The notes below the pieces were generated by a model. The model was not told the origin of the DNA and made no database searches. It saw only the letters and a program-made list of their open reading frames with translations. Position numbers and translations under genes: made by a program. DNA of 64,000 bases from Rhodoferax sp. (GTDB lineage Bacteria; Pseudomonadota; Gammaproteobacteria; Burkholderiales; Burkholderiaceae_C): assembly GCA_031291305.1 (NCBI GenBank), contig JARLJH010000048.1, positions 62,001-126,000 of the forward strand, given 5' to 3'. Below, piece after piece: positions 8,262 to 52,358 of this stretch (its first letter is position 1; every line of letters begins with the position of its first letter).

Positions 8262-8303
8262 TAGCTACATACCCAGGTGATATAAGGGCTATAGGTGCTT
8301 TTT
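8262..8303 (+). repeat. 42-bp dispersed repeat, copy 1
   Basis: This intergenic copy lies between ppk2 and the tRNA gene: TAGCT at 8262, ATAAGGGCT at 8282, T-run at 8300. A second TAGCTA lies 13 bp upstream at 8249. The 20-base start-to-start spacing is shared with eight other copies in this window. Confidence 0.8.
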
Positions 8304-8308
8304 ATATG

Positions 8309-8383
8309 TGGTCCCGCCAGCAGGAATCGAACCTGCATCTAGCACTTAGGAGGCACTCGTTCTATCCATTGAACTATGGCGAG
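8309..8383 (-). tRNA. tRNA-Arg (anticodon CCT)
   Basis: On the minus strand this folds as a full cloverleaf of 75 nt including an encoded CCA. The acceptor stem CTCGCCA pairs with TGGCGGG through one G-U pair. The D-arm contains TTCAATGGATAGAA, the anticodon loop is CTCCTAA with anticodon CCT, and the T-arm has GGTTCGATTCC. It reads AGG codons. It lies between ppk2 and the convergent-side tamB; no partial prophage or att duplicate was seen next to it. Confidence 0.95.
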
Positions 8384-8445
8384 GGACGGGGGATTGTAAA
8401 GGCCGCACCTGCGCGGTCAGCTTGGCATTCGGGTTGTGCGCTCAA

Positions 8446-11400
8446 TCAGTCATAACTCAGGGTGAAAATCAGGTCTACGGCGCTTTGTTCGCCGGTTTGG
8501 GCACGCAGTGTCAGTCGCTTGGAGAGGTCGTAGAAGATGTAAAACACCCCCATGGCGCCGCCCAAACTGCTCTCGTAGGCGATGTAAAAGTCCTGTGACA
8601 GGCGTTTTCCTAAGGTGACAGAGGCCGCGCTGGCGGCGCTGCTGGCAGTGGCACTCTCGCCTCCGCGAAAACTCAGCTCATCCAGGCCGAAGGCTGCAGA
8701 CAATTTGTCCGAAACGCTTTTACCGTTGCCACCCAGTAGCGCCATGGCGGCTTGCTGTAGCAGCGCGCCTTCAGCACCCCCGGCGCCGCTGCTGCGGCCC
8801 AGCACCAGCCAGGTGAGGGTTTCCACATCAGATAGGCTGGGTTCGGAGTACAGCGACACGACGGGCGACAGGGCGGTGCCGGTCACCTGCACGCCGACAC
8901 GCTGGCTGAGTTTGGGGCGAATCGCCAGAATGGCCAGCGCTGGGTTGTCGATGGGGCCGTAAAAGCGGATCAGGCCGCGTTCAATCTGCAGCCGCTGGCC
9001 GTAGGCCTGATAGGTGCCGTTGGTGGTGCGGATGGAGCCAGTGAGCTCTGGCGCTGCACTACCGTTGGCGGTGAGCACCAGTTTGCCTGCCAGACGTGCC
9101 TGAAGCCCGCGCCCACGTATCTGAAAGTCCGGACCCATGTCCAGATTGACGGACACGTCTGGAACGACGTGCACGCCGGGCTTGGCTTGCGCCTGTGACG
9201 CGGTGGACTGCGTCTTGGCACCGGAAGTGGACGCGCCGCCCGGGCGCACCCGCACATCCTCGTCCAGCGTGGGTGTGGTGTCGTCGGGCAGGGTAATGAG
9301 CGCCTGGTCGGCAGTCAGGCTGCCTCGTACCGTCAGCTGGGCATCTTTGAGTTTGGCCTGCAAATCGCCTGACGCCGACAGACGGCGGTCAGGGCGGGCG
9401 CTCAAACGCAGGGCGGTGAGCTTGGCTTGCAGCGCCATCTGAACTCGCTGGCGGATGTCGGTCTGGCCGGACTCCGGCAGCCAGAGCACCGAACCGGTGA
9501 TGCTGAGCAGGCCACCCGCAGCCGCGTCTTGCGGTGTACCTGCGCCGCGCAGGGTGAATGTCTGGATGTCTAGCTGCTGCCCGTGCACCCGTGCATCCAG
9601 GCTGCCCTGGCTGAAATCGATGCCGTCCACCAGAGAGCGTACGGCCAGATCGCGTGCGCGCAGCGAGCCCTCCCACAGCGGTTTGCCGCGGGTGCCACTC
9701 AGGTCAATATGGCTGTCCACAGTGCCGTGCAGCCGCCAACCCGGTGGCGCCAAGGCAGTCCAGGCATCGACCGGTGGCAACTGCAGTTGCAGGCTGCCAC
9801 CCAGCGGCGCGTCGGCAGGCCAGGTCCAGCCACTGTTGTCGGTTTTGAGCCGGGTGCCGAAAGCGGCAAGGGCCCGGCCAGCGCGCTGGCTGTTCCAGCG
9901 CAGGGTGCCGGACACCTGCTCGCCATCCAGATTGACCTGCATCCAGGCCTCCTCCAGGCCTGCTGGCAGCGCGGCAGAGCGTCCCGCATCGGCTTGAATG
10001 CGCACATCTCCCGCGCTGCGCTCCAGAGTGGCACGCAGGTGCAGGGTGTCGCCTTGTGTTGCATCCCAGCTGCCCGATAGAAGCACATCGCTGCTCAGAC
10101 CCAGTTCGGCCATGGGTTTCTGGGTGAAAGCATCCAGCCAGGCCAGCGGCACACCGTCGATGCGGCCCTGGCTTTGCCATTGCGCTCGTCGCGGAGTGGC
10201 TTGGCCGGTATTGATGGACTGTGACCAACGCATCGGTTGCCAACTGATGCCTGCAGCGCCGGCGCCATAACCTGTCAGTCGCGCCGTGCCTGCCGAGACC
10301 GTCAGGGTGTTGGCGCTGGGGCCTGGTTGCCAGCGCACGCTCACGGGCGGAGACGGGGTGCTGACATGGGCAGTGCCTGCGGGCGTGCTGGGCGTCCCTA
10401 GGCGAACCGACCACGGGCTGGGGCTGTTGGGCTCATGCACCGAGAGCTGCGCCTGCTGGAGGCTGCCCAGCCAACTGCCGTCCTGGTTGCGGCCCGCCGT
10501 GGCTTGGGTTTGCCATTGCAGCTGTTGTGCTCCCCGTGTGACCCATCCCCGGCTGCTGAACTGCAAGCTGCTGATTGGGCCTGACACGTCCAGTTGTGCG
10601 TCCCTCAGGCTGAGCGGCGTGGCTGCGGTGGATGCCGTTGGCAACCAACTGAGCTGTGGGGCGCGCAGGCTAGCATCCAGGTGCAGGCCCTGCATGCCTT
10701 GTTGCCAGCCACCTTGCCAATGGGCAGACAGCGTTGCGCTACCTTGCGGCTGACCACTTGCGAGTAGGTTTTTTACACTGGGTAACAGGGAGAGCCATTG
10801 GCTGGCTTGGGTGGCATCCTGCACCTGAATCGATAGCGTACCAAGACCATCTTGCGGGGACGCATGGCCATTTGCATCGGCTTGCAAACCGGGCAGAGAT
10901 AGATTCAGGTGGCCTTGTGTGGCCAGATTGGCGGTGTTGACTTTGAGCTGACCTTCCAGCTTGACTTGTTGCGCATCCAGTTGCAGGGTGCGGAGGTCGA
11001 GCAGCGGTGCAGCCCAAGTACCTTGGGCGTGCAGGTTTGCCAGTAGATCAGTCGGCGCATGGCCAGGCTGGGTCGAACCTTTGCCACTGGAGGTCAGGGT
11101 CAGCTCAAAACTGAAGGGTGTGTCCGCGCCCTGGCGGGCGCTGGCCTTGCCGCTGATCTGGTTTGCTGCCAGGCGCGTGTCAATGGCAGCCGGATTGATG
11201 CCTCGAACTTGCGCATCGCCGTGCCACAGTGTGGCAGCGCCGCCGCCAGATGGGGCGTTGTCGAACTGCCCTTGAGCCTGAATGCTTCCACCCGCACCCT
11301 GTGCCTGCAGGGACTGCACCAGCCAGTGACCGCCTGCGTAAGTCACCTCGGCCTGTAGCTGTTGCAGAGGCAGGCGCTGCTGGTCCCAGGCGCCGCTCAG

Positions 11401-12369
11401 GGTGTTGTCGAGCTTGATGCTGGCTTGCCAGTCTGCGCCCTTTGGCTTGACGTGGGCTTGGCCGCTGAGCAGGGTCTGCGGTGCTTGCGGCCACAGGTTG
11501 GCCAGATTCAGTGCCTGCCAATCACCCTGGGCGCTGAGGATCTTTTGTGCCTGCCACGGTGCAATGTGGGCTGACAGCTTGGCCTGCATGGCGGATGCTT
11601 TGACCGAGTTGCCCGGTGGCGGGAGTTGGCCGACCTGTGTCTGTGTCGTCAACGCTGCTTGGAGTACCAGTTCAGCCTGTGGCCCGGCCAACGCGCCGCT
11701 TAAATCAGCTTGGGCAGCGATGCGCAGGGTTTGGTGGCTGGCGGGCACGGTCGCGTCCAACGCGCCATCCATCTGCACTTGAAGCGCCATGGGGCCACTG
11801 GCCTGCAACTGTCCTGAAAAGTTATAGATGTTGGATAAAAAATGCCCATGGCCCTTATCCAGACTGTGTAAGTAGCTATCAAATGCATAATGGAAACTGA
11901 GTTGATCAACGCGTTGTGTGCTCAGTCCGACCCAAGCCACGGTGTCCACGATCACATCGGCATCCACCCGAAAGGGCAGGCTCAGATCCGTCGGTGGTGC
12001 AGTTGGCGCGGCAGGTGTGGTTGCGCGCTGTTCCTGGATAGTCAGTTGCCCAATGTGCAGCTGGCTCAGACGCAGCTGGCGTTGTAGCAGGGCGTTGGGT
12101 TCCCAAGCCAGGCGGACCTCGCTCGCCTCCACACTCAAATCGCCCTGCTGCCAGCGCAACCAGCCGATGCGCCCACCGTGGCGCAATGAGCCGCTGACCT
12201 CGCGGGTTTGTAGTGTTTGCCCAGCGGGCAGCACACTTTGAATTTGTCGCAGTGCCGTCGCCAGGGACGTGTCGCTGCCTGTCCAGACCCATAGACCAGC
12301 CAGCAGCATCAGCAGGGCCAGCAGCAGCCCAGTCACCACCCAGAGACTCCGGCGCAGCAGCGGCTTCAA
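8446..12369 (-). CDS. tamB: Translocation and assembly module subunit TamB
   Basis: A protein of about 1307 residues with one N-terminal membrane helix (WVVTGLLLALLMLLAGLWVW), a long repetitive beta-rich body and a C-terminal DUF490/TamB domain ending FTLSYD. TamB spans the periplasm and works with TamA in outer-membrane protein or lipid transport. The likely start is TTG at 12369, whose TTGA overlaps the tamA stop by 4 bases; an in-frame ATG at 12402 is an alternative. Residues around FDSYLHSLDKGHGHF are encoded by an embedded 42-bp repeat (11837-11878), so part of the repeat-rich body is recently acquired. Confidence 0.92.
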   Translation of the reverse strand: MKPLLRRSLWVVTGLLLALLMLLAGLWVWTGSDTSLATALRQIQSVLPAGQTLQTREVSGSLRHGGRIGWLRWQQGDLSVEASEVRLAWEPNALLQRQLRLSQLHIGQLTIQEQRATTPAAPTAPPTDLSLPFRVDADVIVDTVAWVGLSTQRVDQLSFHYAFDSYLHSLDKGHGHFLSNIYNFSGQLQASGPMALQVQMDGALDATVPASHQTLRIAAQADLSGALAGPQAELVLQAALTTQTQVGQLPPPGNSVKASAMQAKLSAHIAPWQAQKILSAQGDWQALNLANLWPQAPQTLLSGQAHVKPKGADWQASIKLDNTLSGAWDQQRLPLQQLQAEVTYAGGHWLVQSLQAQGAGGSIQAQGQFDNAPSGGGAATLWHGDAQVRGINPAAIDTRLAANQISGKASARQGADTPFSFELTLTSSGKGSTQPGHAPTDLLANLHAQGTWAAPLLDLRTLQLDAQQVKLEGQLKVNTANLATQGHLNLSLPGLQADANGHASPQDGLGTLSIQVQDATQASQWLSLLPSVKNLLASGQPQGSATLSAHWQGGWQQGMQGLHLDASLRAPQLSWLPTASTAATPLSLRDAQLDVSGPISSLQFSSRGWVTRGAQQLQWQTQATAGRNQDGSWLGSLQQAQLSVHEPNSPSPWSVRLGTPSTPAGTAHVSTPSPPVSVRWQPGPSANTLTVSAGTARLTGYGAGAAGISWQPMRWSQSINTGQATPRRAQWQSQGRIDGVPLAWLDAFTQKPMAELGLSSDVLLSGSWDATQGDTLHLRATLERSAGDVRIQADAGRSAALPAGLEEAWMQVNLDGEQVSGTLRWNSQRAGRALAAFGTRLKTDNSGWTWPADAPLGGSLQLQLPPVDAWTALAPPGWRLHGTVDSHIDLSGTRGKPLWEGSLRARDLAVRSLVDGIDFSQGSLDARVHGQQLDIQTFTLRGAGTPQDAAAGGLLSITGSVLWLPESGQTDIRQRVQMALQAKLTALRLSARPDRRLSASGDLQAKLKDAQLTVRGSLTADQALITLPDDTTPTLDEDVRVRPGGASTSGAKTQSTASQAQAKPGVHVVPDVSVNLDMGPDFQIRGRGLQARLAGKLVLTANGSAAPELTGSIRTTNGTYQAYGQRLQIERGLIRFYGPIDNPALAILAIRPKLSQRVGVQVTGTALSPVVSLYSEPSLSDVETLTWLVLGRSSGAGGAEGALLQQAAMALLGGNGKSVSDKLSAAFGLDELSFRGGESATASSAASAASVTLGKRLSQDFYIAYESSLGGAMGVFYIFYDLSKRLTLRAQTGEQSAVDLIFTLSYD
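11837..11878 (-). repeat. 42-bp dispersed repeat, copy 2 (inside tamB)
   Basis: On the minus strand TAGCT begins at 11878, ATAAGGGC at 11858 and TTTT at 11840, matching the spacing of the intergenic copies. It is read in frame as part of TamB. Confidence 0.75.
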
Positions 12370-14279
12370 AACACAAACCCCACGTTCAGATGCAGGCGCC
12401 ATTTCTGCACCGCCACGCCATAAGCCAGATCAATCTGCAGCGGGCCCACCGGCGTCTTCCAGCGTACACCTCCGCCGACACCCACTTGTGCGTGAAGGTC
12501 GGCAGGTTTGTCGGCCACCGCCCCCGCGTCGATAAACAGTGCCCCTTCCCAGTCAGTCAGTCGGCCCTGGACGGTGATCGGGCGCTGCCACTCCAGGCTA
12601 CCGGTGGTCATGTAGCGTCCGGCCACGACAGTGCCATCTGCTTGTGTGATACCAATGCTGCGCAAGGCATAGCCGCGCACGCTGGTGGCGCCGCCGGTCA
12701 GAAACAGCAGGGTGGAGGGCAAGCTGGTGCCGTCCTTGACCGCCACCGCGCCCACCTCGGCGCGCAGGGCCAGACGCCCGGCGCGCAGGTCAGGCGCGCC
12801 GCTGTCAGGCTGACTGCCCAGTGGCAAGAAGCTCTGCCAACGCGTCAGCACCCGGCTGAAAGGCAGGTGCTCGCTGCCCAGCGTGGTGCCACCGCCGATT
12901 TCCATTCCCGCAGCCCAGCCGCTGGTCGGGAAGGGTAGGGTATCGAACTGACGCCGGGTGAGGGCAAAGTTGATGCTGAGCGACTCTGCGATCTGAGCGC
13001 TCGCCGCGTCCGCCGTGGTCGTGTCAGCGCGGTCATATTCCAGATAGTAGTTGCGGTCAATACGCTCGCCTTCCTTCATGGCACCTGCCCGCCAGCGCTG
13101 GCTGCCCACATCAGACGTGCCGCTGCGCTCGTCCAGCAGCAGCAACGAGGTGTTTCGGCGCCAACCAGCCTCGTCGGGTGGCGCGATCAGCTCAGCGCTG
13201 ATCGACTTGGTGTCACGGTCCAGGGATATCTTGCTGAGCGCACGCCAGCCCAGGCCGTGCACCTGCTGGTGCAGATACTCGGCGCTGAAGCGTGCGCCGC
13301 TGTCGCTGCTGGCACCGAGCCCTAAGGTGATTTTTTGCAGGCGCGCCTCGCGCACCGAGACCAGGATCTGGGCGGCCTGCGGGTCAGACGTGGTGTCAAC
13401 GCGCACAAAAGCCGAGTTGAAATAGCCGCTGTTGGACAGACGCTGTTGGGCGGCCATCAACTCTTTCAGGTTGTAGTCGCTGCCGTCAGGCAGGCGAGCC
13501 AGGCGGCGCACCAGTTCAGCATCAAAACGATTCAGGCCGGTGGTGACCAGGGCGCCTATTTTGTAAGCGGGACCAGAGTTGAGGGTGATGTCCAGTTTGG
13601 CGGTGTGGGTCAGCGGGTCTACATCGGCCAGAGACTCGCTGATCGTGCCGGTGGGGTAGCGCTGGCTGGTGAGCTGGCTCAAAGCTTGCTGTTTGGCGGA
13701 ACCCCAACTGGCCTGGGTGAAACGATTACCTGCCGGCAGCAGCCAACTGGCTTCGATCAGGGTGCGCTGCGCGGCGGCTTGCGGGTCGGTGGCGATGGGG
13801 CCGCTAAAGTGCACCAGCACCTGATTGACGCGCACCGGTTCGCCCGCCACGACGCTGATGTGCACCGTGCGTTGACCCAGTCCTGCGCCTGCATCTGCGC
13901 GGGTGATGTCGATGACTGGTGAGAAATAACCCAGTGTGGCCACCAGATTCTGGATATCCAACTTGGACATCTCCATCAATCGGCTGAGCTCGTCGTCCCG
14001 CAAGTCCGCCAGACTGCGGTAGCGCTGCAGTTCCAGATGGCGCTCAAGCAAGGTTTTGATGTCGTCCGGGGCGGTGATGTCGAGCTGGAAGGCAGACGTC
14101 TGCGCATCCGCCGCAGGTGTTGGCGCGCTGGTGTCTGCAGCCGGTTTGGGCGCCGTTGTACCCATGGGGGTGGCCGCAGCGTTGGGTGCGCTGTCGGTCG
14201 AGTCTGTATTGACAGCATCCTGCGCCGTTGCCAGCAGCGGAGACAGCAGCAAGGCCGCTGTAAGCCAGAGAGAATTCAT
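12366..14279 (-). CDS. tamA: Translocation and assembly module subunit TamA (BamA/Omp85 family)
   Basis: A 637-residue outer-membrane protein with a signal peptide (MNSLWLTAALLLSPLLATAQ), a low-complexity Ala/Pro/Thr linker, POTRA domains (about residues 90-330) and a C-terminal Omp85 beta-barrel. The barrel has a VRGY motif (SVRGYAL) and ends in Phe (NVGFVF), the usual C-terminal signal for barrel assembly. TamA pairs with TamB encoded immediately downstream. The start at 14279 is supported by the signal peptide and a 4-base ATGA overlap with the VWA gene. Confidence 0.94.
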   Translation of the reverse strand: MNSLWLTAALLLSPLLATAQDAVNTDSTDSAPNAAATPMGTTAPKPAADTSAPTPAADAQTSAFQLDITAPDDIKTLLERHLELQRYRSLADLRDDELSRLMEMSKLDIQNLVATLGYFSPVIDITRADAGAGLGQRTVHISVVAGEPVRVNQVLVHFSGPIATDPQAAAQRTLIEASWLLPAGNRFTQASWGSAKQQALSQLTSQRYPTGTISESLADVDPLTHTAKLDITLNSGPAYKIGALVTTGLNRFDAELVRRLARLPDGSDYNLKELMAAQQRLSNSGYFNSAFVRVDTTSDPQAAQILVSVREARLQKITLGLGASSDSGARFSAEYLHQQVHGLGWRALSKISLDRDTKSISAELIAPPDEAGWRRNTSLLLLDERSGTSDVGSQRWRAGAMKEGERIDRNYYLEYDRADTTTADAASAQIAESLSINFALTRRQFDTLPFPTSGWAAGMEIGGGTTLGSEHLPFSRVLTRWQSFLPLGSQPDSGAPDLRAGRLALRAEVGAVAVKDGTSLPSTLLFLTGGATSVRGYALRSIGITQADGTVVAGRYMTTGSLEWQRPITVQGRLTDWEGALFIDAGAVADKPADLHAQVGVGGGVRWKTPVGPLQIDLAYGVAVQKWRLHLNVGFVF

Positions 14280-15490: not shown

Positions 15491-15499
15491 GGGTTGCTC

Positions 15500-16188: not shown

Positions 16189-16207
16189 GGTGCGCTTCCA
16201 AAATGCA

Positions 16208-16224
16208 ATATACGGATTGTATAT
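16208..16224. promoter_or_regulatory. Probable VapB operator palindrome
   Basis: A perfect inverted repeat, ATATAC - 5 bases - GTATAT, lies 20 bp upstream of the vapB start and overlaps TATACAAT, a -10-like sequence on the minus strand. AbrB-fold antitoxins repress their own promoters through such palindromes. Placement and symmetry are seen; binding is inferred. Confidence 0.6.
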
Positions 16225-16334
16225 GGTTGATAGAAAAAGCGTACACCGGTGCAAATCCAATCAATTGAATTCTCTCGACAAAGCGATCGAGGGTTAAGCA
16301 ACCCATTGAAGCTGAATAGTCGGTGGTCGTCTAT

Positions 16335-18430: not shown

Positions 18431-19408
18431 ATGAAAACCTACGCACGAATTACCGGCACAGGAAGCTTTTTGCCGCCAAATCGGCTGACCAATGCCGACT
18501 TGGTCGGCCAACTGGCGGCGCAAGGGATTGAGTCTAGCGACGAGTGGATTGTGGAGCGCACCGGCATTCGGGCGCGTCATTTTGCGGATCCTGAAACCAC
18601 CTCCAGCGACATGGCGCTGCAGGCCTGTCTGCGGGCATTGGATGCAGCCCACTGCATGGCGAAAGACATTGATCTGATCATCGTTGGAACGTCAACGCCA
18701 GACATGGTTTTTCCGTCAACGGCAACCATTTTGCAGGGCAAACTGGGTGTACACGGTGGAGCTGCGTTCGATGTTCAGGCGGTTTGTAGTGGCTTTATAT
18801 ATGCGCTGACGATTGCTGACGCGATGATCAAGGCAGGCTCGGCCACCAAAGCGTTGGTGGTGGGCTCCGAGGTGTTTTCCAGAATTCTGGATTTCAAGGA
18901 TCGCACCACTTGCGTGCTGTTTGGTGACGGCGCTGGCGCAGTGGTCCTGGAAGCCTCCGCTGAACCCGGCATTCTGGCGACCGATATCCACGCTGATGGC
19001 AAGTACACCGATATTTTGTGTGTGCCGGGCAACGTGTCTGGCGGTGAGATTCTCGGCTTGCCGCTGCTGCGCATGGATGGTCAAGCCGTGTTCAAGTTGG
19101 CGGTGCATGTTCTGGATGAAACCGCCCACGCTGTGCTGGCCAAGGCCGACAAGACCGTGGCCGACGTTGATTGGCTGCTGCCGCACCAGGCCAATATCCG
19201 TATCATGCAAAGCACGGCGCGCAAGCTCAAGCTGCCGATGGACAAGGTGGTGGTCACTGTGGACCAACATGGCAACACCTCGGCAGCGTCAATTCCGTTG
19301 GCGCTGGACACCGCGGTGCGCAGCGGGCAGGTCAAGCCCGGTCAGACTCTGCTGCTTGAAGGTGTGGGTGGCGGCTTTACCTGGGGATCAGTGCTACTTA
19401 CGCTGTAG
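18431..19408 (+). CDS. fabH: Beta-ketoacyl-ACP synthase III
   Basis: A 325-residue condensing enzyme that starts fatty-acid synthesis from acetyl-CoA and malonyl-ACP. The active-site Cys lies in [11 protein letters not shown], the His in LPHQANIRI and the Asn in HGNTSAAS. The stop codon TAG (19406-19408) is the first three bases of a 42-bp dispersed repeat. Confidence 0.97.
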
Positions 19409-19447
19409 CGTAATGCCCTTATTTAATAAGGGCTAGAAGCTAATTTC
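19406..19447 (+). repeat. 42-bp dispersed repeat, copy 3
   Basis: TAGCG at 19406 supplies the fabH stop codon; ATAAGGGCT follows at 19426 and TTTC at 19444. The inner GCCCTTATTTAATAAGGGC is palindromic and could form a hairpin in the fabH-fabD spacer. Confidence 0.8.
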
Positions 19448-19479
19448 CCATATATTTCTGGATGAATGGCGTTGCATAG

Positions 19480-20436
19480 ATGAAACCTTTTGCTTTTGTT
19501 TTTCCGGGTCAGGGTTCGCAGTCTGTCGGCATGCTGGACGGTTGGGGCGACCACCCACAAGTGCTGGCCGCTGTGGCGGAGGCCTCAGATGCACTGCATG
19601 AAGACATTGATCAATTGATCAAAGAAGGCCCCAAGGAGGCGCTGGCGCTCACCACCAACACGCAACCCGTGATGTTGGTTGCGGGTGTGGCCGCCTATCG
19701 TGTCTGGATGGCGGAGGTGGGCGTGGCGCCTGCTGCCGTGGCTGGACATTCGTTGGGTGAATATTCGGCGTTGGTGGCCTCCGGTGTGTTGACGCTGTCG
19801 CAAGCGGTGCCGCTGGTGCGGTTTCGAGCGCAGGCCATGCAGGAAGCGGTGCCGGTTGGTGTCGGCGCTATGGCCGCTATTTTGGGGATGGATGCTTCTA
19901 AAGTGATAGCTATTTGCGCAGAGGTGACGGGGGCTTTTGCTCATAATTCTTCTGAGGTAGTGGAGGCGGTCAATTTCAACGATCCCGGTCAGACGGTGAT
20001 TGCTGGCTCCAAAGCTGCGGTCGATCAAGCCTGTGTTGCGCTGAAAAGCCAGGGTGCCAAGCGTGCCTTGCTGCTGCCGGTATCTGCGCCGTTTCATTCC
20101 AGTTTGATGAAGCCTGCGGCTATGAAGCTCAAGGACAAACTCGATGCCGTCGAGTTTGCTGCGCCGCAAATCCCGGTCATCAATAACATCGACGTGGCTG
20201 TGGAGCAAAGCTCCGAGCGCATTCGGGACGCCTTGGTGCGTCAAGCGTTTGGCCCGGTGCGTTGGGTGGAGTGTGTGCAAGCCATGCAAGCGCATGGTTT
20301 GTCCACGCTGGTGGAGTGTGGTCCTGGCAAGGTGCTGGCAGGTATGACCAAACGCATCACCCCCGACATGCAGGGTGTGGCGTTGTTTGATCCAGCCAGC
20401 CTCACAGAAGTCAAAACAACTCTTTTGGAAGCTTGA
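19480..20436 (+). CDS. fabD: Malonyl-CoA:ACP transacylase
   Basis: A 318-residue enzyme charging ACP with malonate. The nucleophile Ser lies in GHSLGEYSAL, the start FVFPGQGSQSVGML is typical, and the catalytic His lies in SAPFHSSLM. The segment ASKVIAICAEVTGAFAHNSSE (about residues 139-159) is encoded by an embedded 42-bp repeat (19907-19948), making this loop longer than in most FabD proteins just before VVEAVNFN. It overlaps or abuts fabG, whose ATG lies 5 bp downstream. Confidence 0.96.
   Translation: MKPFAFVFPGQGSQSVGMLDGWGDHPQVLAAVAEASDALHEDIDQLIKEGPKEALALTTNTQPVMLVAGVAAYRVWMAEVGVAPAAVAGHSLGEYSALVASGVLTLSQAVPLVRFRAQAMQEAVPVGVGAMAAILGMDASKVIAICAEVTGAFAHNSSEVVEAVNFNDPGQTVIAGSKAAVDQACVALKSQGAKRALLLPVSAPFHSSLMKPAAMKLKDKLDAVEFAAPQIPVINNIDVAVEQSSERIRDALVRQAFGPVRWVECVQAMQAHGLSTLVECGPGKVLAGMTKRITPDMQGVALFDPASLTEVKTTLLEA
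19907..19948 (+). repeat. 42-bp dispersed repeat, copy 4 (inside fabD)
   Basis: TAGCT at 19907 is followed by ACGGGGGCT at 19927, diverged from ATAAGGGCT but at the same 20-base offset, and AATT at the position of the T-run. It is preceded by AAGTGA as part of an open frame. Divergence makes this copy less certain than the intergenic ones. Confidence 0.55.
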
Positions 20437-24116: not shown

Positions 24117-24731
24117 ATGTCTGAGCGATTGAACGAATGCAATGAACGAGTTTCCGCAATGGTGGACGGACAACTCTCGGGCGACGAGTTTGCCCATACG
24201 GTCAACTTTCTCGTTGACACCCCAGAAGCACGCCATTCCTGGGATACCTACCACCTAGTCGGTGAGGCAATGCGTTCCGCTGGTGCGCCAATGTGTGCCC
24301 ATGACCCGGATTTTGTCGCCCGGCTGCGTTTGAAGCTGGCCGACGAAAGTCCTAAATCAATAGCTATTAACTCCGTTTCAGAACAGGCAAAGGGCCTGAA
24401 TAGCAAAAAAATGGCGGCGTCCAATAACAATTGGTGGAAGCGTGTAGCAGGGTTGGCATCCATCGCCGTGATGGGGATGCTGACTTGGCAAGGCGTGGTG
24501 CTGCTTGGCCCAGGCGTTGATCGACAATCCGATGCGCCACTGGCGCAGTTGTCCACGCCACCGTCTCAGGTGGCTGTGCTGGTAACGGCAGACGGCGCCT
24601 CGGCATTGATGATTCGTGACCCGCAGCTTGATGCCCTGCTGGCCGCCCACCGTCAGATGGGTGGCGCCACGGCTTTGCAAATGCCTTCTGGTTTTTTGCG
24701 CAACGCCACTTTCGATGAGGGCAAGCGTTGA
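24117..24731 (+). CDS. rseA: Anti-sigma-E factor RseA
   Basis: A membrane protein of about 204 residues. The cytoplasmic anti-sigma domain starts SERLNECNERVSAMVDGQLS, and one transmembrane helix lies near VAGLASIAVMGMLTWQGVVLL, followed by a periplasmic tail. The start at 24117 follows AAAGAGAG; an in-frame ATG at 24060 is less likely. The linker SIAINSVSEQAKGLNSKK resembles a diverged copy of the 42-bp repeat (TAGCT at 24361, AAAGGGC at 24389), but the spacing is 7 bases longer than standard. Confidence 0.9.
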   Translation: MSERLNECNERVSAMVDGQLSGDEFAHTVNFLVDTPEARHSWDTYHLVGEAMRSAGAPMCAHDPDFVARLRLKLADESPKSIAINSVSEQAKGLNSKKMAASNNNWWKRVAGLASIAVMGMLTWQGVVLLGPGVDRQSDAPLAQLSTPPSQVAVLVTADGASALMIRDPQLDALLAAHRQMGGATALQMPSGFLRNATFDEGKR

Positions 24732-31282: not shown

Positions 31283-32328
31283 ATACTACAAAAAACAAAG
31301 CTACTGACCAAGAAGATACGGAGGCTGACGGCCTAAACCCTGGGTTTTGCCAAAGTGACGTAGAAGCCATGTTGGCAGGCCTGCATCGTGACATGCGCCC
31401 TGCGGGTCCGGCGCAAGAAGCCGTGGAAGGGCAGCGCTGCGGCCTGATCGCCATCGTCGGCAAGCCCAATGTCGGCAAATCAACTCTGCTCAATGCGCTG
31501 GTCGGGCAAAAGATCAGCATCACCTCGCGCAAGGCGCAGACCACGCGCCACCGCATCACTGGCATGCACACCGTGGGCGCTACCCAGTTTGTGTTTGTCG
31601 ATACGCCCGGTTTTCAGACCATTCACGGTAACGCCTTGAACAAGTCGTTGAACAAAACCGTGGTGGGTGCGGTGGCCGATGTGGACCTGATCCTGTTTGT
31701 CGTTGAGGCGGGCAGTTTCACCCCCGCCGATGCGCGCGTGTTGGCGCTGTTGGGCAAGAACATCCCGACGCTACTGATTGCCAATAAGCTCGACAACGTG
31801 CACCGCCGTGGCGACATTGCGCCCTGGCTGCAAGAGATGCACGCCAAACACAGCTTCACCGAATTTGTGCCCATGTCCGCCAAAAACGCCAAGGACATCG
31901 AGCGCCTGCTCGACATCTGCGCCAAGTACCTACCTGAGCAGGCTTGGTGGTATGCCGCTGATGAGCTCACTGACCGTAGTGAACGCTTCATGGCTGCCGA
32001 GATGGTGCGTGAAAAGCTGTTTCGCCTGACTGGTGATGAATTGCCCTACACCTCCACCGTGGTCATTGACAAGTTTGAAGAGGAGCCTCCGCAGAAAAAG
32101 GGCCAGAAACGCCTATTGCGCATTGCCGCCACCATCGTCGTCGAGCGCGACGGCCACAAGGCCATGGTGATTGGCGACAAGGGCGAGCGCATCAAGCGCA
32201 TTGGCATGGAAACGCGGGTTGAGCTTGAAAAGCTGATGGACGCCAAGGTGTTCATCGAGATGTGGGTCAAGGTGCGCTCCGGCTGGGCCGATGACGAGGC
32301 GCGGGTAAGGTCGTTTGGGTATGAGTAA
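31279..32328 (+). CDS. era: GTPase Era with N-terminal extension
   Basis: A 349-residue GTPase acting in 30S subunit maturation. G1 is GKPNVGKST at residue 61, G3 lies in DTPGF and a C-terminal KH domain ends the protein. In many Era proteins G1 is near residue 15, so about 45 extra residues precede the G domain. This acidic extension may contain a diverged 42-bp repeat: AAGCT at 31308, ACGGCCTA at 31328 and TTTT at 31345. Confidence 0.95.
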
Positions 32329-35025: not shown

Positions 35026-35433
35026 ATGATCTACGGCATTGGCACCGACATCTGCGATGTGCGCCGCATCCAGACCAGCCTGGACCGCCACGGCGAGCGC
35101 TTTGCCAAAAAAGTGCTCTCGGATGGTGAGTTCACCGCCTGGCAGATGCGCACGCGGCGCTGGCCCGAGCGCGGTGTGCGCTACCTGGCGACCCGTTTCA
35201 GCGCCAAAGAGGCCTTCAGCAAGGCCATTGGCTTGGGTATGACCATGCCGATGACCTGGCGCAGCTGCGAGATTGGCAAGCTGCCCAGCGGCAAACCGGT
35301 GGTCGTGCTGCATGGCGCGTTGAAAGACTGGTTTGAGGCCAAAGGACTCACCGCCCACATCACTGTCACCGATGAGACCGATTACGCCGCCAGCTTCTGT
35401 GTGGTGGAAGTTATAGATAAAAATGGCCTCTAG
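35026..35433 (+). CDS. acpS: Holo-ACP synthase
   Basis: A 135-residue 4'-phosphopantetheinyl transferase activating ACP. The metal-site motif lies in [14 protein letters not shown] and the second in [11 protein letters not shown]. The last residues (IDKNGL) and the stop codon come from a 42-bp dispersed repeat in reverse orientation. Confidence 0.96.
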
Positions 35434-35460
35434 CCCTTTTGATACCTTGGCTAGTAGCTA
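35419..35460 (-). repeat. 42-bp dispersed repeat, copy 5 (acpS 3' end)
   Basis: On the minus strand TAGCT begins at 35460, AAAAGGGCT at 35440 and TTTT at 35422. It supplies the last codons and the stop of acpS. Confidence 0.8.
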
Positions 35461-35499
35461 TCTATTGAATAGTAAAGACGAGATACTAAGGAATGAACC

Positions 35500-36819: not shown

Positions 36820-36941
36820 GCAATGTGTTCCTGAAAAATGGAGGTGAGGCGAGCAAGTATCTCACCATCGGGTTGTATCAAGTGATGTGTCTGGCCAGTA
36901 TTGGACAATCGAACCCGTCCTATCTCCAGATCAATTTCCTC

Positions 36942-39566: not shown

Positions 39567-39739
39567 GTGCCTATTTGTTGATGGTGTTTTTAAGAAAATG
39601 GCTTTCTGCCCCCGTGTATATTAGTCATGTAGCTAGTTATTTTGAAGCGGATGAAATAGAAAAGAGTGACAAAAATGATCCGATGTCAGCCAGCACGTAG
39701 GCGGCGCGCCGATGCGTTGGAAACCTGAGCGACAACACC

Positions 39740-43671: not shown

Positions 43672-44229
43672 TCAACTCGCTACTGCCTGCGCCGCCTCCC
43701 ATAACCGCGCTCCAGAAATTTCCAGGTGCGTCAGGTACACCCGCACTTCAAATTCGAGCTGGTGGTAGCGCGGTTCCATGTAGCTGCAGAGTTGGTAAAA
43801 CGCCTTGTCGTGCTGGCGCTCTTTGAGGTGGGCCAGTTCGTGTACAGCGATCATTTTCAGGAAGTCTTCCGGGGTGGTCTTGAACAAGGACGCCACGCGA
43901 ATTTCGCGTTTGGCCTTGAGCTTGTTGCCCTGCACCCGACTGATGCTGGTGTGCGTGCCCAGCGCGTGCTGCACCACCTGGAGCTTGGCGTCGAACGCCA
44001 CCTTGGACAAAGGTTCGGAGCCGCGCAGGTGTTCGGATTTGAGCGCCTGCACGTAGTCAAACAGAGCCTTGTCGGTGCGCACCGTGTGGCCTTGCGGGTA
44101 CTTTGTGAGCAGCCAGTCGGCCACGCGGTCTTCCTGCAGCAGTTTGTCGACTTGCGCCAAGGTCTCTGCCGGGTAGCCTTGCAGGTAGCGCAAGGGTTTG
44201 GCGCTGCCTGCGTAAACTATCGTAGTCAT
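43672..44229 (-). CDS. YgjP-like metallopeptidase (M48 family)
   Basis: A 185-residue protein with the zinc motif HELAHLK and a later His in the YgjP arrangement. YgjP/WrpA-like proteins are predicted zinc proteases of uncertain substrate. The gene is convergent with the hybrid kinase. Its 5' part (44117-44229) is duplicated as a decayed copy at 46181, next to lysS. Confidence 0.88.
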   Translation of the reverse strand: MTTIVYAGSAKPLRYLQGYPAETLAQVDKLLQEDRVADWLLTKYPQGHTVRTDKALFDYVQALKSEHLRGSEPLSKVAFDAKLQVVQHALGTHTSISRVQGNKLKAKREIRVASLFKTTPEDFLKMIAVHELAHLKERQHDKAFYQLCSYMEPRYHQLEFEVRVYLTHLEISGARLWEAAQAVAS

Positions 44230-44325
44230 AGCTGCTTGCCCTTTGTGTATAAGGGCTAGGGGCCAATTTTCTTTAAACTTCGCGGCGCAGCGCCGGGAAC
44301 GGCATCACGTTGCAGATGCTGCTGA
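44117..44325 (+). repeat. Left copy of a duplicated ygjP-lysS junction
   Basis: Positions 44117-44220 are the intact 5' part of the YgjP-like gene, while 44270-44325 are a decayed copy of the lysS 3' end (TTTAAACTTCGCGGCGCAGC and following, against TTAAACTTCCCGGCGCAAGG at 46335). The right copy at 46181 has the reverse state: decayed ygjP, intact lysS. Similarity over the first 70 bases is about 80 percent by eye. Confidence 0.75.
44229..44270 (+). repeat. 42-bp dispersed repeat, copy 6
   Basis: TAGCT begins at 44229 (next to the ygjP start codon on the other strand), ATAAGGGCT at 44249 and TTTT at 44267. It is part of the duplicated junction. Confidence 0.82.
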
Positions 44326-44341
44326 CTTCCTGGAATAGCTG

Positions 44342-46063: not shown

Positions 46064-46180
46064 GGTATTCCTTGGGTGGGTAAGTTGAACCAAGCAATCA
46101 TTGACGTTGCCGCCTGTGCGCCAGGATAGTGTCCCTGTCAATCATGCAACCACCATGGCGCGGTGTGTGAATTCTATATA

Positions 46181-46388
46181 TCGGCCATGCGGTTTTCCAG
46201 CAGCAGTTGGTCGACCTGCGCCAGGTGTTCGCCTGGTCGCCTTGCAGATAGCTCAGCCCGATTGTGTGCAGGCTAATTGCTATATTAATAGAAGCTACCA
46301 GCCAAGAATCTATCTGGGCTATAGACTAATTTTCCTTAAACTTCCCGGCGCAAGGCCGGGAACAGGATCACGTCACGGATGCTGCTGC
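46181..46388 (+). repeat. Right copy of a duplicated ygjP-lysS junction
   Basis: Positions 46181-46260 are a decayed copy of the YgjP-like gene 5' part (TCGGCCATGCGGTTTTCCAG against TCGGCCACGCGGTCTTCCTG), and 46336-46388 are the intact lysS 3' end. It is a direct repeat of 44117-44325, about 2.06 kb apart. Confidence 0.75.
46292..46333 (+). repeat. 42-bp dispersed repeat, copy 7
   Basis: AAGCT at 46292, ATCTGGGCT at 46312 and TTTT at 46330 keep the standard spacing. It abuts the lysS stop codon (46336-46338) and corresponds to copy 6 in the other junction. Confidence 0.78.
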
Positions 46389-47895
46389 TGTCGGTCAGCA
46401 ACATCATCAGCCGGTCCAGCCCGACGCCGCAGCCGCCGGTAGGTGGCATGCCGTATTCGAGCGCACGGATGAAATCTGCGTCGTAATACATGGCCTCGTC
46501 GTCGCCGCTGTCTTTGGCCGCCACCTGCGCCTGAAAGCGGGCGGCTTGCTCTTCGGCATCGTTCAACTCGCTGAAGCCGTTGCCGAACTCGCGTCCGGTG
46601 ATGTACAGCTCAAAACGCTCGGTCACTTCGGGGCGGCTGTCGTTGGCGCGGGCCAGCGGCGAGATTTCGGTCGGGTGCTCCATGATGAAGGTCGGCTGCC
46701 AGAGCTTTTCTTCCACGGTTTCTTCAAAGTACAGCACTTGCAGGCTGGGCAGGCTGCGGGTCGAGATGTGGTGCTTGGCTTCGGTGATGCCGAGTTTGGG
46801 TAGCGCTGCGCGCAGCCACTCGGCGCTGTCCACCTTGAGGCCAGAGCCGTCGTCGAGCATCTGGCCGGCCTCGGTGTATTTGCAGATGGCTTCGTGGATG
46901 GTCAGGCGCTCAAACGGTTGTTCCAGATCCACCGGCTTGCCTGCGTAGCTGAGCTGCAGCGTACCCAGGGCACGTTGTGCGGCATCGCGGATCAGCGCTT
47001 CGGTGTAGGTCATCACGTCTTGGTAGTCCCAATACGCCGCGTAGAACTCCATCATGGTGAACTCGGGGTTGTGGCGCACGCTGATACCTTCGTTGCGAAA
47101 GCTGCGGTTGATCTCGAACACGCGCTCAAAGCCGCCGACGATCAGGCGTTTGAGGTAGAGCTCGGGCGCAATGCGCAAAAACATCTGCTGGTCCAGCGCG
47201 TTGTGGTGCGTGGTGAAGGGCTTGGCGTTGGCGCCGCCCGGAATCGGGTGCAGCATCGGCGTTTCGACTTCCAGAAAGTCGTGCGCCACCATGAATTCGC
47301 GGATGCCCGACACCGCCTTGCTGCGCGCCATAAAGCGCTTGCGGGTGTCTTCGTCGGTCATCAGATCGACGTAACGCTGGCGGTATTTGATCTCCTGGTC
47401 GGCCATGCCATGAAACTTGTCGGGCATCGGGCGCAAGCTCTTGGTCAGCAGGCGGATGCTGCTGGCGTGAATCGACAGCTCACCGGTTTTGGTCTTGAAC
47501 ACCAGACCTTCGGCGGCCACGATGTCGCCCAGATCCCAGTGTTTGAAGGCGTTGTAGACCTCTTCGCCGATGTCGTCGCGCTTGATGTACACCTGGATGC
47601 GCCCGGTGCTGTCTTGCAGCGTGGCAAAACTGGCCTTGCCCATGACGCGCTTGAGCATCATGCGCCCGGCGATTTTGGCTTTTGAGCCTTGTTCGATCAG
47701 CGCCTCGGGAGTTTGTTCTGCATGCGCGGCAAACAGGTCGGCGGCGTGATCGGCGGGTTTGAAGTCGTTTGGAAAGGCCGGACCTTTGCCTTCGGCCTGT
47801 GCTTGGCGCAGGGCTTTGAGCTTTTCGCGGCGCTCCAGAATCAGCTGGTTTTCGTCCTGGGGGGCTGGGCTGGCGGCGGCGATGTGTTCAGACAT
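46336..47895 (-). CDS. lysS: Lysyl-tRNA synthetase
   Basis: A 519-residue class II synthetase. The N-terminal OB anticodon-binding domain is followed by class II motifs: FLEVETPML (motif 1), [20 protein letters not shown] (motif 2) and [13 protein letters not shown] (motif 3). The start at 47895 ([10 protein letters not shown]) is preferred to one 9 bases upstream. Its 3' end is duplicated as a remnant near 44270-44325. Confidence 0.97.
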
Positions 47896-48075
47896 GTGGA
47901 GCAATCAAGAGTGGCAACGGGTTGGCGCGGTGTTTTTCATCACGGGCAAGCCTGAGACGAGCGACAAGTTGGGCAAAAGCCCGCGCGCGGTGGGGAGGCT
48001 AGCAAAGCGGGCTATTTTAAAGTGCCTCGCAGTCGCTATGATCTAACGCACCTGCCCTGTCCGGTTTTTCACATC

Positions 48076-48642
48076 ATGTTGTACGAAATTGCTTCCCTGT
48101 TGCTTGAGGTTGTTGTTGGCTTTCTCAGCGGTGCCTGCCTGCTGCGTCTGTACATGCAGTACCAGCGCATTCCGATGTCGGTGCGCTCGGGTAACCCGCT
48201 GGGCCAATTTGTGTTTGCCGTGACCGACTGGATCGTGCTGCCGCTGCGCCGTGTGTTGCCAGCCATCGGCGCGCTGGACACCGCCAGTCTGGTAGCCGCG
48301 TTTTTGTTGCAGTTGGCCGAATTTGGCCTGCTGTGGCTGTTAGCCGGGGCGGCAGGCGGGCTCTTTGCGGTGCCGATCCTGGCGTTGTTTGGCTTGTTGC
48401 GCATGTCGATTTCGGCCATGACTGGCGGGGTCATCGTCTACGCGATCCTGTCCTGGGTGCAAACCCATTCGGTGATCGCTGACGTGATGGAGCGCCTGGT
48501 GTCACCTCTGTTGATGCCGATACGCCGGGTGCTGCCGTTGATTGGCGGTATTGACCTGTCTCCACTGGCGCTGCTGCTCATCCTGCAAATAGCGGCCATC
48601 GTGCTGGGCAATTTGCAGGCGACGGCGCTACTGGCCTTTTGA
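48076..48642 (+). CDS. YggT family membrane protein
   Basis: A 188-residue membrane protein with two YGGT repeats (about residues 1-90 and 95-185) and at least four hydrophobic helices; each repeat carries a PxRR-type turn (LPLRRVLP, MPIRRVLP). YggT proteins affect membrane or osmotic behaviour in some bacteria; the function is poorly defined. The ATG at 48076 is chosen because the membrane domain starts there. It is divergent from lysS. Confidence 0.9.
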   Translation: MLYEIASLLLEVVVGFLSGACLLRLYMQYQRIPMSVRSGNPLGQFVFAVTDWIVLPLRRVLPAIGALDTASLVAAFLLQLAEFGLLWLLAGAAGGLFAVPILALFGLLRMSISAMTGGVIVYAILSWVQTHSVIADVMERLVSPLLMPIRRVLPLIGGIDLSPLALLLILQIAAIVLGNLQATALLAF

Positions 48643-48822
48643 AATATTGCGGGACAGACCAATTCCGCTGAGCGAAGCGAAGATCAGCTGCTCTGTCCCC
48701 AACACTTCGTCGGATGTTGCATGTCCACCTTGCGGGACTGACCAAGAGTTACACGGAGTGAACTTTGCCTTGCTGCAACGGACCGTTCAGCCAATCGCAG
48801 CGGCCAGCATTGTCCCAACGGA
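48643..48822. other. Intergenic region with an inverted-repeat element
   Basis: This is a gap of 180 bp between convergent genes. A 49-bp element at 48651-48699 has perfect 8-bp ends GGGACAGA and TCTGTCCC. No coding frame is credible. It could be a folded termination region or a decayed miniature element; the T-run needed for a classic terminator is absent. Confidence 0.4.
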
Positions 48823-49176
48823 CTATTTAGCGCTCCCCGTTGTCTTTTTGACCTTTTTAGCCGCTTTGGGCTTGGGCGCCGGTGTTTCCAGTTCGGTCAG
48901 TCGGATCAGGTGCGACACCCAGGTGCGATCTTCCAGCTGATCCTCGATGAGGAACCAGGGTTTGCCACCCGGATAGGGCGGCGCCTCGACCGGGCTGCCG
49001 ATCAGGTTGCGACCCGCTGCACTGGGTTTGACAAACAACTGGTTGTCGCACACCAGTGCCACCACCTTGCCGTTGCAATAGATGGCGTATTCACCAAACA
49101 TCTTGCGAAAAGAAACCGGCCCGGACGCACTGATCTGGTCGCAGACGTAGTCAACATACGACTGGTCTGAGCTCAT
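48823..49176 (-). CDS. TfoX N-terminal-domain protein
   Basis: A 117-residue protein with the TfoX-N fold (VSFRKMFGEYAIYCNGKVVALVCDNQLFVK) and a Lys/Ala-rich tail. It lacks the TfoX C-terminal domain, so a role in competence cannot be assumed. The start at 49176 (MSSDQSYVDYV) is preferred over 49209. It lies downstream of accD on the same strand. Confidence 0.88.
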   Translation of the reverse strand: MSSDQSYVDYVCDQISASGPVSFRKMFGEYAIYCNGKVVALVCDNQLFVKPSAAGRNLIGSPVEAPPYPGGKPWFLIEDQLEDRTWVSHLIRLTELETPAPKPKAAKKVKKTTGSAK

Positions 49177-49209
49177 GATGCGTGCGTGGTGTGGTGGGCT
49201 GCCGGGCAA

Positions 49210-50082
49210 TCAGGCCACTGCGTCGGCGCTTTGGCGTGTCAGCATGGCCAGGGTGTTGGCGATGGTTTTGCGCAGTTCACGTCGATCGCAGATCAGGTCC
49301 ACGGCACCTTTTGTTTGTAAAAATTCGGCGCGCTGAAAGCCTTCGGGTAGCTTCACTCGCACGGTGGATTCAATCACGCGCGGACCGGCAAAGCCGATCA
49401 GAGCCTTGGGCTCGGCGATCACCACGTCGCCCAAAAAGGCAAAGCCGGCGCTAACGCCACCCATGGTCGGGTCGGTCAGTACGCTGATGAAGGGCAGGCC
49501 TTTTTTGGCCAGATGCGTGAGCGATGCATTGGTTTTGGCCATCTGCATCAGACTCAGTAGACCCTCTTGCATGCGGGCGCCTCCCGTGGCGGTGAAGCAA
49601 ACAAATGGGACTTTCTGCTCAATGGCGGCTTGTACACCACGGGCAAAGCGTTCGCCCACCACCGAGCCCATGCTGCCACCCATGAATTCGAACTCAAAGC
49701 AAGCTGCCACCAGGCCTATCCCCATGACGGTACCGCCCATGACGATCAGTGCATCGGTTTCACCAGTGTTCTCCAGGGCCTCTTTCAGACGCTCGGGATA
49801 TTTGCGGCTGTCCTTGAACTTGAGCGCATCCACCGGCAGCACTTCCTGGCCGATCTCGTAGCGACCCTCGTTGTCCAGAAAGACGTTGAGCCGGGCGCGC
49901 GCGCCGATGCGGTGGTGGTGGCTGCAGTTGGGGCAAACGTTCTGGTTTTGTTCCAGATCAGTCTTGTAGAGCACGGTGTCGCAGGCCGGACACTTGATCC
50001 AAAGCCCCTCGGGCATCGCGCGGCGCTCTTTGGGGTCGGTGTGCTGGATTTTTGGGGGAAGCAGTTTTTCTAGCCAACTCAT
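49210..50082 (-). CDS. accD: Acetyl-CoA carboxylase carboxyltransferase subunit beta
   Basis: A 290-residue subunit of the enzyme making malonyl-CoA. The N-terminal zinc ribbon has the pattern CPACD and CPNCS, and the crotonase-fold part contains GGARMQEG and [26 protein letters not shown]. It supplies malonyl-CoA to the FabD pathway at 19480. It is the last gene of the truA-trpF-trpB-trpA-accD string. Confidence 0.97.
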
Positions 50083-50156
50083 GCTTTTCTCCTGAGGGGA
50101 AACGGCGCAGAAGGCGGCGGAGGCAGCCCTCTGTAACGAAAGGTTTTAACGGCGGA

Positions 50157-50978
50157 TTATGAATCCAATGCAGTGCGGATTTCGCGCAGGAAGGTTTGCG
50201 CGGTAGGGGCCACCTGGTCGCGCGGCTGGTCGCCGATCAACTGAATGATCTTGCTGCCAATCACCACCGCGTCGGCGGCTTCGCCAATGGCACGCGCCGT
50301 GGCCGCATCACGGATGCCAAAACCGACACCCACCGGCACGCTCACATGGGCGCGAATGCGCGGCAACATGGCCTTGACGGCGTCGGTATCAAGCGCGCCC
50401 GAGCCGGTCACGCCCTTGAGCGACACGTAATACACGTAGCCGCTGGCAATGCTGGCTACTTGCGCCATGCGCTCATCGGTAGAGGTGGGGGCCAGCAAAA
50501 AGATCAGGTCCATGCCGTGGGCTTTGAGCTCGGCGGCGAATTCTTCACACTCTGCAGGCGGGTAGTCGACGATCAATACACCGTCGACCCCGGCGGCGCT
50601 GGCGTCCTGCACAAAAGCGCTGTAATTGCCGCCACTGGCGTGCTTCTGGTTGTAGCGCTCCACCGGGTTGGCGTAGCCCATCAGCACCACCGGGGTGGTG
50701 ATATCTCGTTGGCGAAAGGTTCGTACCATCTCCAGCACCTGGGTCAGGCCGATACCAAACGACAAGGCCTTGTCACCGGCTTTCTGGATCACAGGACCGT
50801 CGGCGCTGGGGTCGGAAAACGGCACGCCGAGTTCGATCACGTCGGCCCCACCGGCCACCATGGCGTGCATCAGCTCGGGGGTGACATCGGCAAATGGAAA
50901 GCCAGCGGTGACAAACGGAATCAGCGCCTTGCGGCCTTGGGTCTGCAGTTGGCTGAAAGTGGTGGCAATGCGGCTCAT
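50157..50978 (-). CDS. trpA: Tryptophan synthase alpha chain
   Basis: A 273-residue TIM barrel cleaving indole-3-glycerol phosphate. The catalytic Glu lies in [16 protein letters not shown] and the catalytic Asp in [10 protein letters not shown]; the phosphate loop GFGIRD is present. It overlaps trpB by 4 bases. Confidence 0.97.
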
Positions 50979-52300
50979 TGAGAAACTCCTGAATCTGTAG
51001 CTGACTGCGCTTTATTAATAAGGGCTACAGGCACATTTTGTACATCACCTTTGACGGACTGTCCCTGGCAGCTGGGGCGACAGAAGAAGTCGGCACCCGA
51101 CAGGTCGGCCACCGTGCCGATGTCCTTGTCGCCACGCCCTGACAGATTGACCAGAATGGATTCGTCGGGGCGCATGGTTTTAGCCAGTTTCATGGCGTAG
51201 GCCACGGCGTGGCTGGATTCGAGCGCCGGGATGATGCCCTCGGTGCGGCATAGGTAGTGAAAGGCCTCCAGTGCCTCGGTATCGGTGATGCCGACGTATT
51301 CGGCGCGGCCGATGTCGTTGAGGAAAGCATGCTCTGGTCCGACGCCAGGGTAGTCCAGCCCGGCGCTGATGCTGTGGGTTTCGGTGACCTGGCCGTTGTC
51401 GTCCTGCAGCACATAGGTGCGGTTGCCGTGGAGTACGCCGGGGCTGCCGCGCTGGATGCTGGCCGAGTGTTTGCCGCTGTCCATGCCAGCACCGGCGGCC
51501 TCCACACCAATCAGCCGGGTTTTTTCGTGTTCGATGTACGGGTAGAAGATGCCCATGGCATTGGAGCCGCCACCGACGCAGGCGACCACCACATCGGGCT
51601 GGGCGCCGCTGCAACCGGCCGCGTGCAGCATCTCGGGCATCTGCACCAGGCATTCCTGGCCGATCACGCTCTGGAAGTCGCGCACCATCATCGGGTAGGG
51701 GTGCGGGCCGGCCACGGTGCCAATGATGTAGAACGTGTTGTCCACGTTGGCGACCCAGTCGCGCATGGCCTCGTTCAGGGCATCCTTCAGCGTCTTGCTG
51801 CCGGACTCCACGGGCACCACGGTGGCGCCGAGCAGCTTCATGCGGTAAACGTTAGGGCTTTGGCGTTTGACATCTTCGCTGCCCATGTAGACCACACATT
51901 CGAGCCCGTAGCGCGCGCAGATGGTGGCGGTGGCGACGCCGTGCTGGCCAGCGCCGGTTTCGGCAATCACGCGCGGTTTGCCCATGCGTTTGGCCAGCAT
52001 CGCCTGGCCGATGGTGTTGTTGATCTTGTGCGCGCCGGTGTGGTTGAGGTCTTCGCGCTTGAGGAAGATCTGCGCGCCACCCATTTCGCGGCTCATGCGC
52101 GCGGCGTGGTAAACGGGGGAGGGACGGCCGACAAAGTGTGCCAGCTCGGACTCGAACTCGGCGATAAAGGCCGGGTCAAACTGGAATTTGGCGTAAGCGT
52201 CTTTGAGCTCGTTGACGGCGTGGGTCAGCGTTTCGGAAATGAAACTGCCGCCGTAGACGCCAAAGTGGCCACGTGAATCGGGTTGTTGGTAGTCAAGCAT
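50975..52300 (-). CDS. trpB: Tryptophan synthase beta chain
   Basis: A 441-residue PLP enzyme. The cofactor Lys lies in [10 protein letters not shown], and the phosphate loop GGGSNAMG and the SGRGDKD segment are present. The last 20 or so residues ([11 protein letters not shown] and following) are read from a 42-bp dispersed repeat, giving a longer C-terminus than usual. trpA starts inside the stop region. trpE/D/C are not nearby, as in many Burkholderiales, where trpF-trpB-trpA form a separate group. Confidence 0.97.
50998..51039 (+). repeat. 42-bp dispersed repeat, copy 8 (trpB 3' end)
   Basis: TAGCT at 50998, ATAAGGGCT at 51018 and TTTT at 51036. On the other strand it encodes part of the TrpB tail. 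Confidence 0.85.
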
Positions 52301-52316
52301 GATGATATTAGGTTGA

Positions 52317-52358
52317 TAGCTGTCAGCCCTTTATTTATAAGGGCTAGAGGACTATTTT
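52317..52358 (+). repeat. 42-bp dispersed repeat, copy 9 (trpF-trpB spacer)
   Basis: TAGCT at 52317, ATAAGGGCT at 52337 and TTTT at 52355. The inner part GCCCTTTATTTATAAGGGC can form a hairpin. The far end supplies the trpF stop codon (TAG on the minus strand, 52352-52354). Confidence 0.85.

Follow-up and report, generated by a model that had tools for sequence, protein, structure and literature searches.

A dispersed REP-like repeat of about 62 bp in part of the Comamonadaceae carries constrained blocks and may be kept as a DNA-level site

A short sequence with fixed internal spacing recurs on both strands in the window (the whole stretch of 64,000 nucleotides from Rhodoferax sp. that was analysed), and raises the question of whether it is a product of chance, a relic of past movement, or a site that the host now keeps. 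The original prediction listed nine copies of a 42-bp repeat, and eight of these hold up: a template of the reported pattern matches 19–23 of its 23 fixed bases there, with scores of at most 17 in twenty first-order shuffled windows, and our profile R1 gives E values of 6.7e-17 to 1.8e-11. The ninth, at 19907 in FabD, matches R1 over its left half alone (E 0.0048). Because the eight copies are among the 34 from which R1 was built, the whole genome provides the independent test. In the genome of the window (4.98 Mb, 69 contigs) there are 61 exact occurrences of the spaced motif and none of the reversed pattern; a looser form gives 126 strand matches versus one for the control, there are at least 150 R1 matches, and no matrix match of 8 bits or more is found in 840 kb of shuffled sequence. 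The genome scan put forward as a check on the prediction thus returns a large excess, and the repeat is confirmed as real. That it is a chance motif of AT-rich gaps is therefore a reading to which we give next to no weight, although chance is probably the right account of the FabD match and perhaps of one in era.

The repeat unit is about 62 bp long and encloses the 42-mer described before. Its consensus, built from 228 non-redundant copies in several genomes and written from position -14, is tTGCTATtaAATtaATAGCTaCTtGCCCTTttTatATAAGGGCTAGAGGCCaATTTtacaTAtAAtttt, and it is partly palindromic, with a 9-bp stem possible. Three conserved blocks stand at fixed spacing, namely TAGCT at positions 1–5, GGGC at 25–28 (inside ATAAGGGCT, 21–29) and ATTT at 38–41, and within genomes there are two stem types (CTT and CAR) and two right-end types (TTT and AAA). 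The copies in the window are collected in Table 1; for those on the minus strand the coordinate given previously is the right-hand end of the 42-mer (11837–11878 and 35419–35460).

Table 1. Copies of the repeat in the window. Gene names, including lysS for 46336–47904, are those we take to apply, either recognised from the sequence or carried over from the original prediction.
Copy	Coordinates	Strand	Scores and remarks
Between a plus-strand gene and a minus-strand tRNA gene (8312–8383)	8247..8312	+	R1 47.8 bits (in training set); exact motif
Within tamB, same strand	11828..11891	-	R1 39.8 bits (in training set); template 21/23
Over fabH stop codon, ahead of fabD	19392..19458	+	R1 47.3 bits (in training set); relatives share place
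Within rseA, decayed	24350..24402	+	Matrix 11.9 here; 39.8–54.1 in six of seven element-rich relatives
Over acpS stop codon, acpS–nagZ gap	35408..35475	-	R1 57.2 bits (in training set); orthologues
Weak copy, gap ahead of 39740	39594..39635	-	Template 16/23 at 39594; matrix 26.7
At start of 43672–44229 gene	44215..44280	+	R1 55.1 bits (in training set)
Over stop codon of 46336–47904 gene (lysS)	46277..46344	+	R1 42.1 bits (in training set); shared place in G004, G005, G024
Encoding TrpB C-terminal tail, antisense to gene	50984..51048	+	R1 51.3 bits (in training set)
trpF–trpB gap, with trpF stop	52303..52367	+	R1 54.8 bits (in training set); orthologues in 12 species
Weak copy within trpF, same strand	52783..52838	-	R1 5.3 bits, E 1.1; matrix 30.3 (at 52824)

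Comparison with relatives, which include R. ferrireducens A7 (G024), Rhodoferax sp. BLA1 (G079), U11-2br (G004), U2-2l (G085) and STD1_66 (G033), helps to sort the weaker candidates. At the fabH–fabD site the matrix scores 61–75 bits in G004, G005, G024, G060, G061 and G079, and 36 in G085. The candidate at 24361 in rseA, which had been proposed as a weak copy, is indeed weak in the window (R1 E 0.43), yet its high scores in element-rich relatives identify it, on sequence, as a true copy that has decayed. Two further weak copies have counterparts elsewhere, that at 39635 on the minus strand in approximately the same place in G005 (R1 15.3 bits) and that at 52824 on the minus strand at the matching place in G010 (R1 16.2 bits). 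The match in FabD behaves otherwise: the matrix gives 20 bits in the window and 19.6 in G005, but the remaining six element-rich relatives do not exceed 6.1, two element-poor genomes stay at 5 or below, and the length of FabD is unchanged. It is probably due to chance. The match in era at 31308 (13.2 bits with the matrix) has partial R1 matches in four of 30 genomes, and era is of equal length in 24 of the 30, element-poor genomes included, the remainder differing by 3–45 bases. Insertion of the repeat into era and FabD is thus unsupported, as FabD is equally long, and era mostly so, in genomes free of the repeat.

The repeat has an uneven distribution within one family, and in the remainder of the order its matches do not rise above chance. 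A core match was found in 112 of 399 family genomes and in 49 of 141 genera, many of these being single and chance-like, but at least ten exact core matches are present in 57 of the 399 genomes, from 26 genera, the highest counts being 227 for a genome of the genus (G024) and 197 for one from another genus (G316), versus at most four per family genome for a reversed control pattern. Outside the family but within the order, a single match was found in each of seven genomes out of 243, which equals the control. Most of the named records retrieved with trpF belong to Rhodoferax or other Comamonadaceae. Within the genus a profile match occurs in 77 of 89 genomes; of the 89, 38 have at least 50, 11 have 11–46 and 40 have ten or fewer, counts made with stricter filters, capped at 56 per genome and including some incomplete genomes. 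In G010, an even sample of 240 kb contains 35 copies of at least 15 bits, from which we estimate about 720 per genome. Abundance does not imply occupancy of every site, as the hit-rich G014 and G032 lack a copy at trpF–trpB. At the other extreme, the element-poor G003 and G089 have no profile match in 100 kb; with the matrix they yield one match, of 10.9 bits, which by its coordinates lies in the acpS–nagZ gap of G089 and shares its register with the copy of the carriers, and nothing scores in their fabH–fabD gap. The match in G089 is probably a remnant, in which case the acpS–nagZ copy would predate the split. Matches to the pattern in 96 viral contig stretches are close to the chance expectation by our own estimate, and we recognised no published description of this repeat in the portions of the literature covered by our search.

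Copies hold their positions between species. The sites of the window are filled in the same place and on the same strand in G004, G005 and G024, which show about 80–82% identity over the trp region, and all ten listed copies of G004 have an aligned counterpart in G061 and G079 (92–95% identity), one of the ten being, by eye, much changed in G079, and three G061 copies lying beyond the overlap; the G004 copy corresponding to 44215..44280 is one that aligns in both. Between G061 and G079, two species that are 92% alike, 41 of 48 G061 copies in 280 kb have a partner. Of the seven unpaired copies four are weak, and the three strong ones belong to larger blocks that G079 lacks; conversely, three copies are confined to G079, and the strong one among them falls within a block that G061 lacks. 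Neither a clean insertion nor a clean excision of the unit is seen in this pair or for the G004 copies in either genome, and no clean empty site was found among close relatives, the empty sites of distant relatives being too diverged for the ends to be placed. The TrpB-tail copy is at the matching place in several relatives and missing from others. Separately, a copy occurs at the position of 36820–36940 of the window in G004, G005 and G024 and is lacking in the genome of the window.

An indication that the repeat is under selection comes from the rates at which its parts change between G061 and G079, for which copies were picked in G061 only and 44 of 48 could be aligned. The three blocks differ at 18 of 572 sites (3.1%; 5/220, 5/176 and 8/176 for positions 1–5, 25–28 and 38–41 respectively), whereas the spacers at 6–9 and 16–20 differ at 77 of 396 (19.4%; 35/176 and 42/220). 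For comparison, these two genomes diverge by 18.9% at fourfold sites (A 45%, T 34%, C 15%, G 13%) and by 8.7% in intergenic DNA outside the repeat, so that the blocks fall below both (Fisher P 1.6e-7 versus intergenic DNA; P 7e-30 versus fourfold sites), while the spacers change at the fourfold rate (P 0.80) and faster than intergenic DNA (P 5e-11). The blocks were picked after the rates had been seen; with the wider block 21–29 the figure is 35 of 792 (4.4%, P 4.8e-6 versus intergenic DNA), and noncoding copies alone give 12/273 for blocks and 41/189 for spacers. Taken by itself, 21–29 differs at 5.6%, slightly below intergenic DNA (P 0.024), the stem at 10–15 at 6.8%, an insignificant difference from it (P 0.32), positions 30–37 at 12.3% and the right end at 42–54 at 12.6%, faster than intergenic DNA (P 0.002). 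Positions 1–42 contain one gap cell where approximately seven are expected (P 0.007). At the trpF–trpB site, compared over 12 species, identity is 0.83 in the core, 0.375 in the spacer and 0.64 at trpB fourfold sites.

Since copies are found by means of their blocks, part of this constraint is ascertained, and choosing them in a single genome reduces the effect but leaves some of it. Copies do not appear to overwrite one another, because orthologous spacers are similar (1.8 differences in 9 positions on average) and paralogous ones unlike (6.0 in 9). Conversion between copies was considered and set aside, as spacer changes track the binomial expectation closely, with two outlying pairs that have four loop changes where 0.2 are expected. 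Taken together, these sequence comparisons point to purifying selection on a motif of fixed spacing; the fixed spacing had been noted in the original prediction, and it is this that selection appears to preserve. Many copies are decayed, as in rseA and in a continuum of scores, and single copies are therefore dispensable.

To describe placement we used 91 copies in 460 kb of the genome of the window, taken from stretches picked for known matches together with the window itself, with genes called by our own codon model, which misses some. Copies inside genes number 18 where 72 are expected and intergenic copies 39 where 10 are expected; 31 overlap a gene end, 28 of them at the 3' end where about four are expected, and three lie at stretch edges. 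Stop codons are concentrated towards the two ends of the unit. Among 70 copies of defined orientation 33 run with transcription and 37 against it. A polarity relative to the replication strand, hinted at by 66 listed exact G010 copies, is absent when 150 profile matches are used.

The use of copies as coding sequence, which had been proposed as characteristic, is thus real but is the exception, and the stop codons of AcpS, TrpF and FabH do lie inside a copy, as does that of lysS. A length of 42 bp is not what allows copies to be tolerated within genes; an open frame fits instead, with nine of 11 same-strand and six of seven antisense copies keeping to one frame per strand, which the consensus, read by eye, leaves free of stops. 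The proposal that copies are in-frame insertions fares unevenly. In genomes without the repeat FabD is of equal length, era mostly so and rseA nearly so, but carriers have a TrpB tail about ten codons longer and a trpF–trpB gap about 45 bases longer by eye, in both cases less than the full unit and in genomes too diverged for the ends to be placed. As the constraint on the blocks points to selection on the spaced motif, insertion in frame is at most a partial account. In the trpF–trpB gap of R. ferrireducens A7 there are more than 100 extra bases with inverted repeats of the CCGGGCTTGACCCGG type, a different family, beside the repeat.

We propose, at about even odds, that the repeat is an ancient REP-like element of about 62 bp in part of the Comamonadaceae that is now under selection, probably as a DNA-level site. 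A REP-like or miniature mobile element would have spread long ago and would now serve the host; a DNA-level site is suggested by the combination of constraint in place, even orientation and free spacers. A putative protein would most likely be bound, contacting all three blocks, and lineages that lost this factor may have let their copies decay. More tentatively, the copies may form several hundred putative nucleoprotein sites that are spread over the genome and particular to the family, in which the three-block motif is under purifying selection at each locus, the candidate protein has been lost in some lineages and the sites have then decayed together.

It is unlikely, though the resemblance is considerable, that the repeat is a purely selfish REP or MITE family spread by a RAYT-type transposase with copies that now drift. 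REP and BIME elements, with their RAYT transposases, are described (PMC2817692, PMC3733652) as short, present in hundreds of copies, biased to extragenic DNA and partly palindromic, all of which the present repeat shares, and its copies lie on both strands. MITEs, described in PMC10969869 as small non-coding repeats with partly inverted arms, are similar in these respects, and PMC3733652 describes Rickettsia palindromic elements with some copies in frame within genes, as here. A PF01797 match is present in 34 of 35 genus genomes, and a copy adjoins the 3' end of the RAYT-like gene at five of 21 loci, and weakly at a sixth. However, the GTAG tag expected 5' of the stem is absent from the consensus, the RAYT-like gene is also found where the repeat is missing, and at 19 of 21 loci it has other flanks, GGGGTCAGA by eye, with an imperfect form at one more. 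The PF01797 search found no parent element of the MITE kind, and, in contrast to the Rickettsia elements, in-gene copies are depleted and no clean insertion emerged from the comparisons. No insertion difference separates the relatives compared, and drifting copies would not hold their blocks so far below their spacers; constraint in place, like the missing tag and the other flanks of the RAYT-like gene, sets the repeat apart from REP elements. It is unlikely that the resident RAYT-like gene moves the repeat. As observations on this gene, it is kept across the genus (loci L092, L102–L104 and L106–L121), with 67–80% identity to the copy of the window's genome in 19 relatives, its flanks by eye carry a repeat of their own, GGGGTCAGA/TCTGACCCC, and at its 3' end in the element-poor G021 (locus L111) an AT-rich inverted repeat around AAGCTTTTTTGCTA takes the place of the repeat.

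Selection could instead act on an RNA hairpin. That the repeat is an mRNA 3'-end hairpin, a decay barrier or weak terminator working in either orientation, would accommodate the excess of copies at gene 3' ends, the stop codons at unit ends and the possible stem, but we regard it as improbable, given that copies lie within genes as well as between trpF, trpB and trpA. Shuffled sequences fold nearly as well as the copies do (mean z -1.1 and -1.2 for the copies, with 23–24% below -2). Positions 12 and 26 covary (z 5.4), largely because species differ, and G-G is common there, accounting for 11 of 12 G060 copies, while the pairs 14–24 and 15–23 are often broken; covariation was accordingly dropped as weak proof of a hairpin. 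The dialects at 12/26 are mostly G-C in G010, G-G in G060, and C-G or G-G in G000. Rfam covariance models match the tRNA alone in the window, and over eight copy-bearing loci their single match is weak and lies outside the copy. A signal of the DNA-uptake type, kept by biased transformation and not by benefit to the host, seems to us a rather remote prospect. The uptake sequences of Neisseriaceae and Pasteurellaceae are likewise numerous, occur in both orientations, differ in dialect between species and are nearly absent from some lineages, and the fixed-spaced blocks of the repeat, the genomes of the genus that almost lack it and an rseA linker of nearly equal length with and without a copy would agree with such a signal. 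Known uptake signals are, however, several times shorter than a unit of about 62 bp, and the trpF–trpB gap is longer when the repeat is present.

We return to the reading of an old REP-like element that would now be under selection, probably as a DNA-level site. Small bacterial repeats are usually regarded as mobile debris, whereas the copies described here stay put between species and their blocks evolve at roughly one sixth of the rate of fourfold sites and at little more than a third of that of other intergenic DNA, with spacers that change freely. As a single genus holds 38 hit-rich and 40 near-empty genomes, the putative trans-acting factor could be sought through gene content, and such a search would make a host role for REP-like repeats directly testable.
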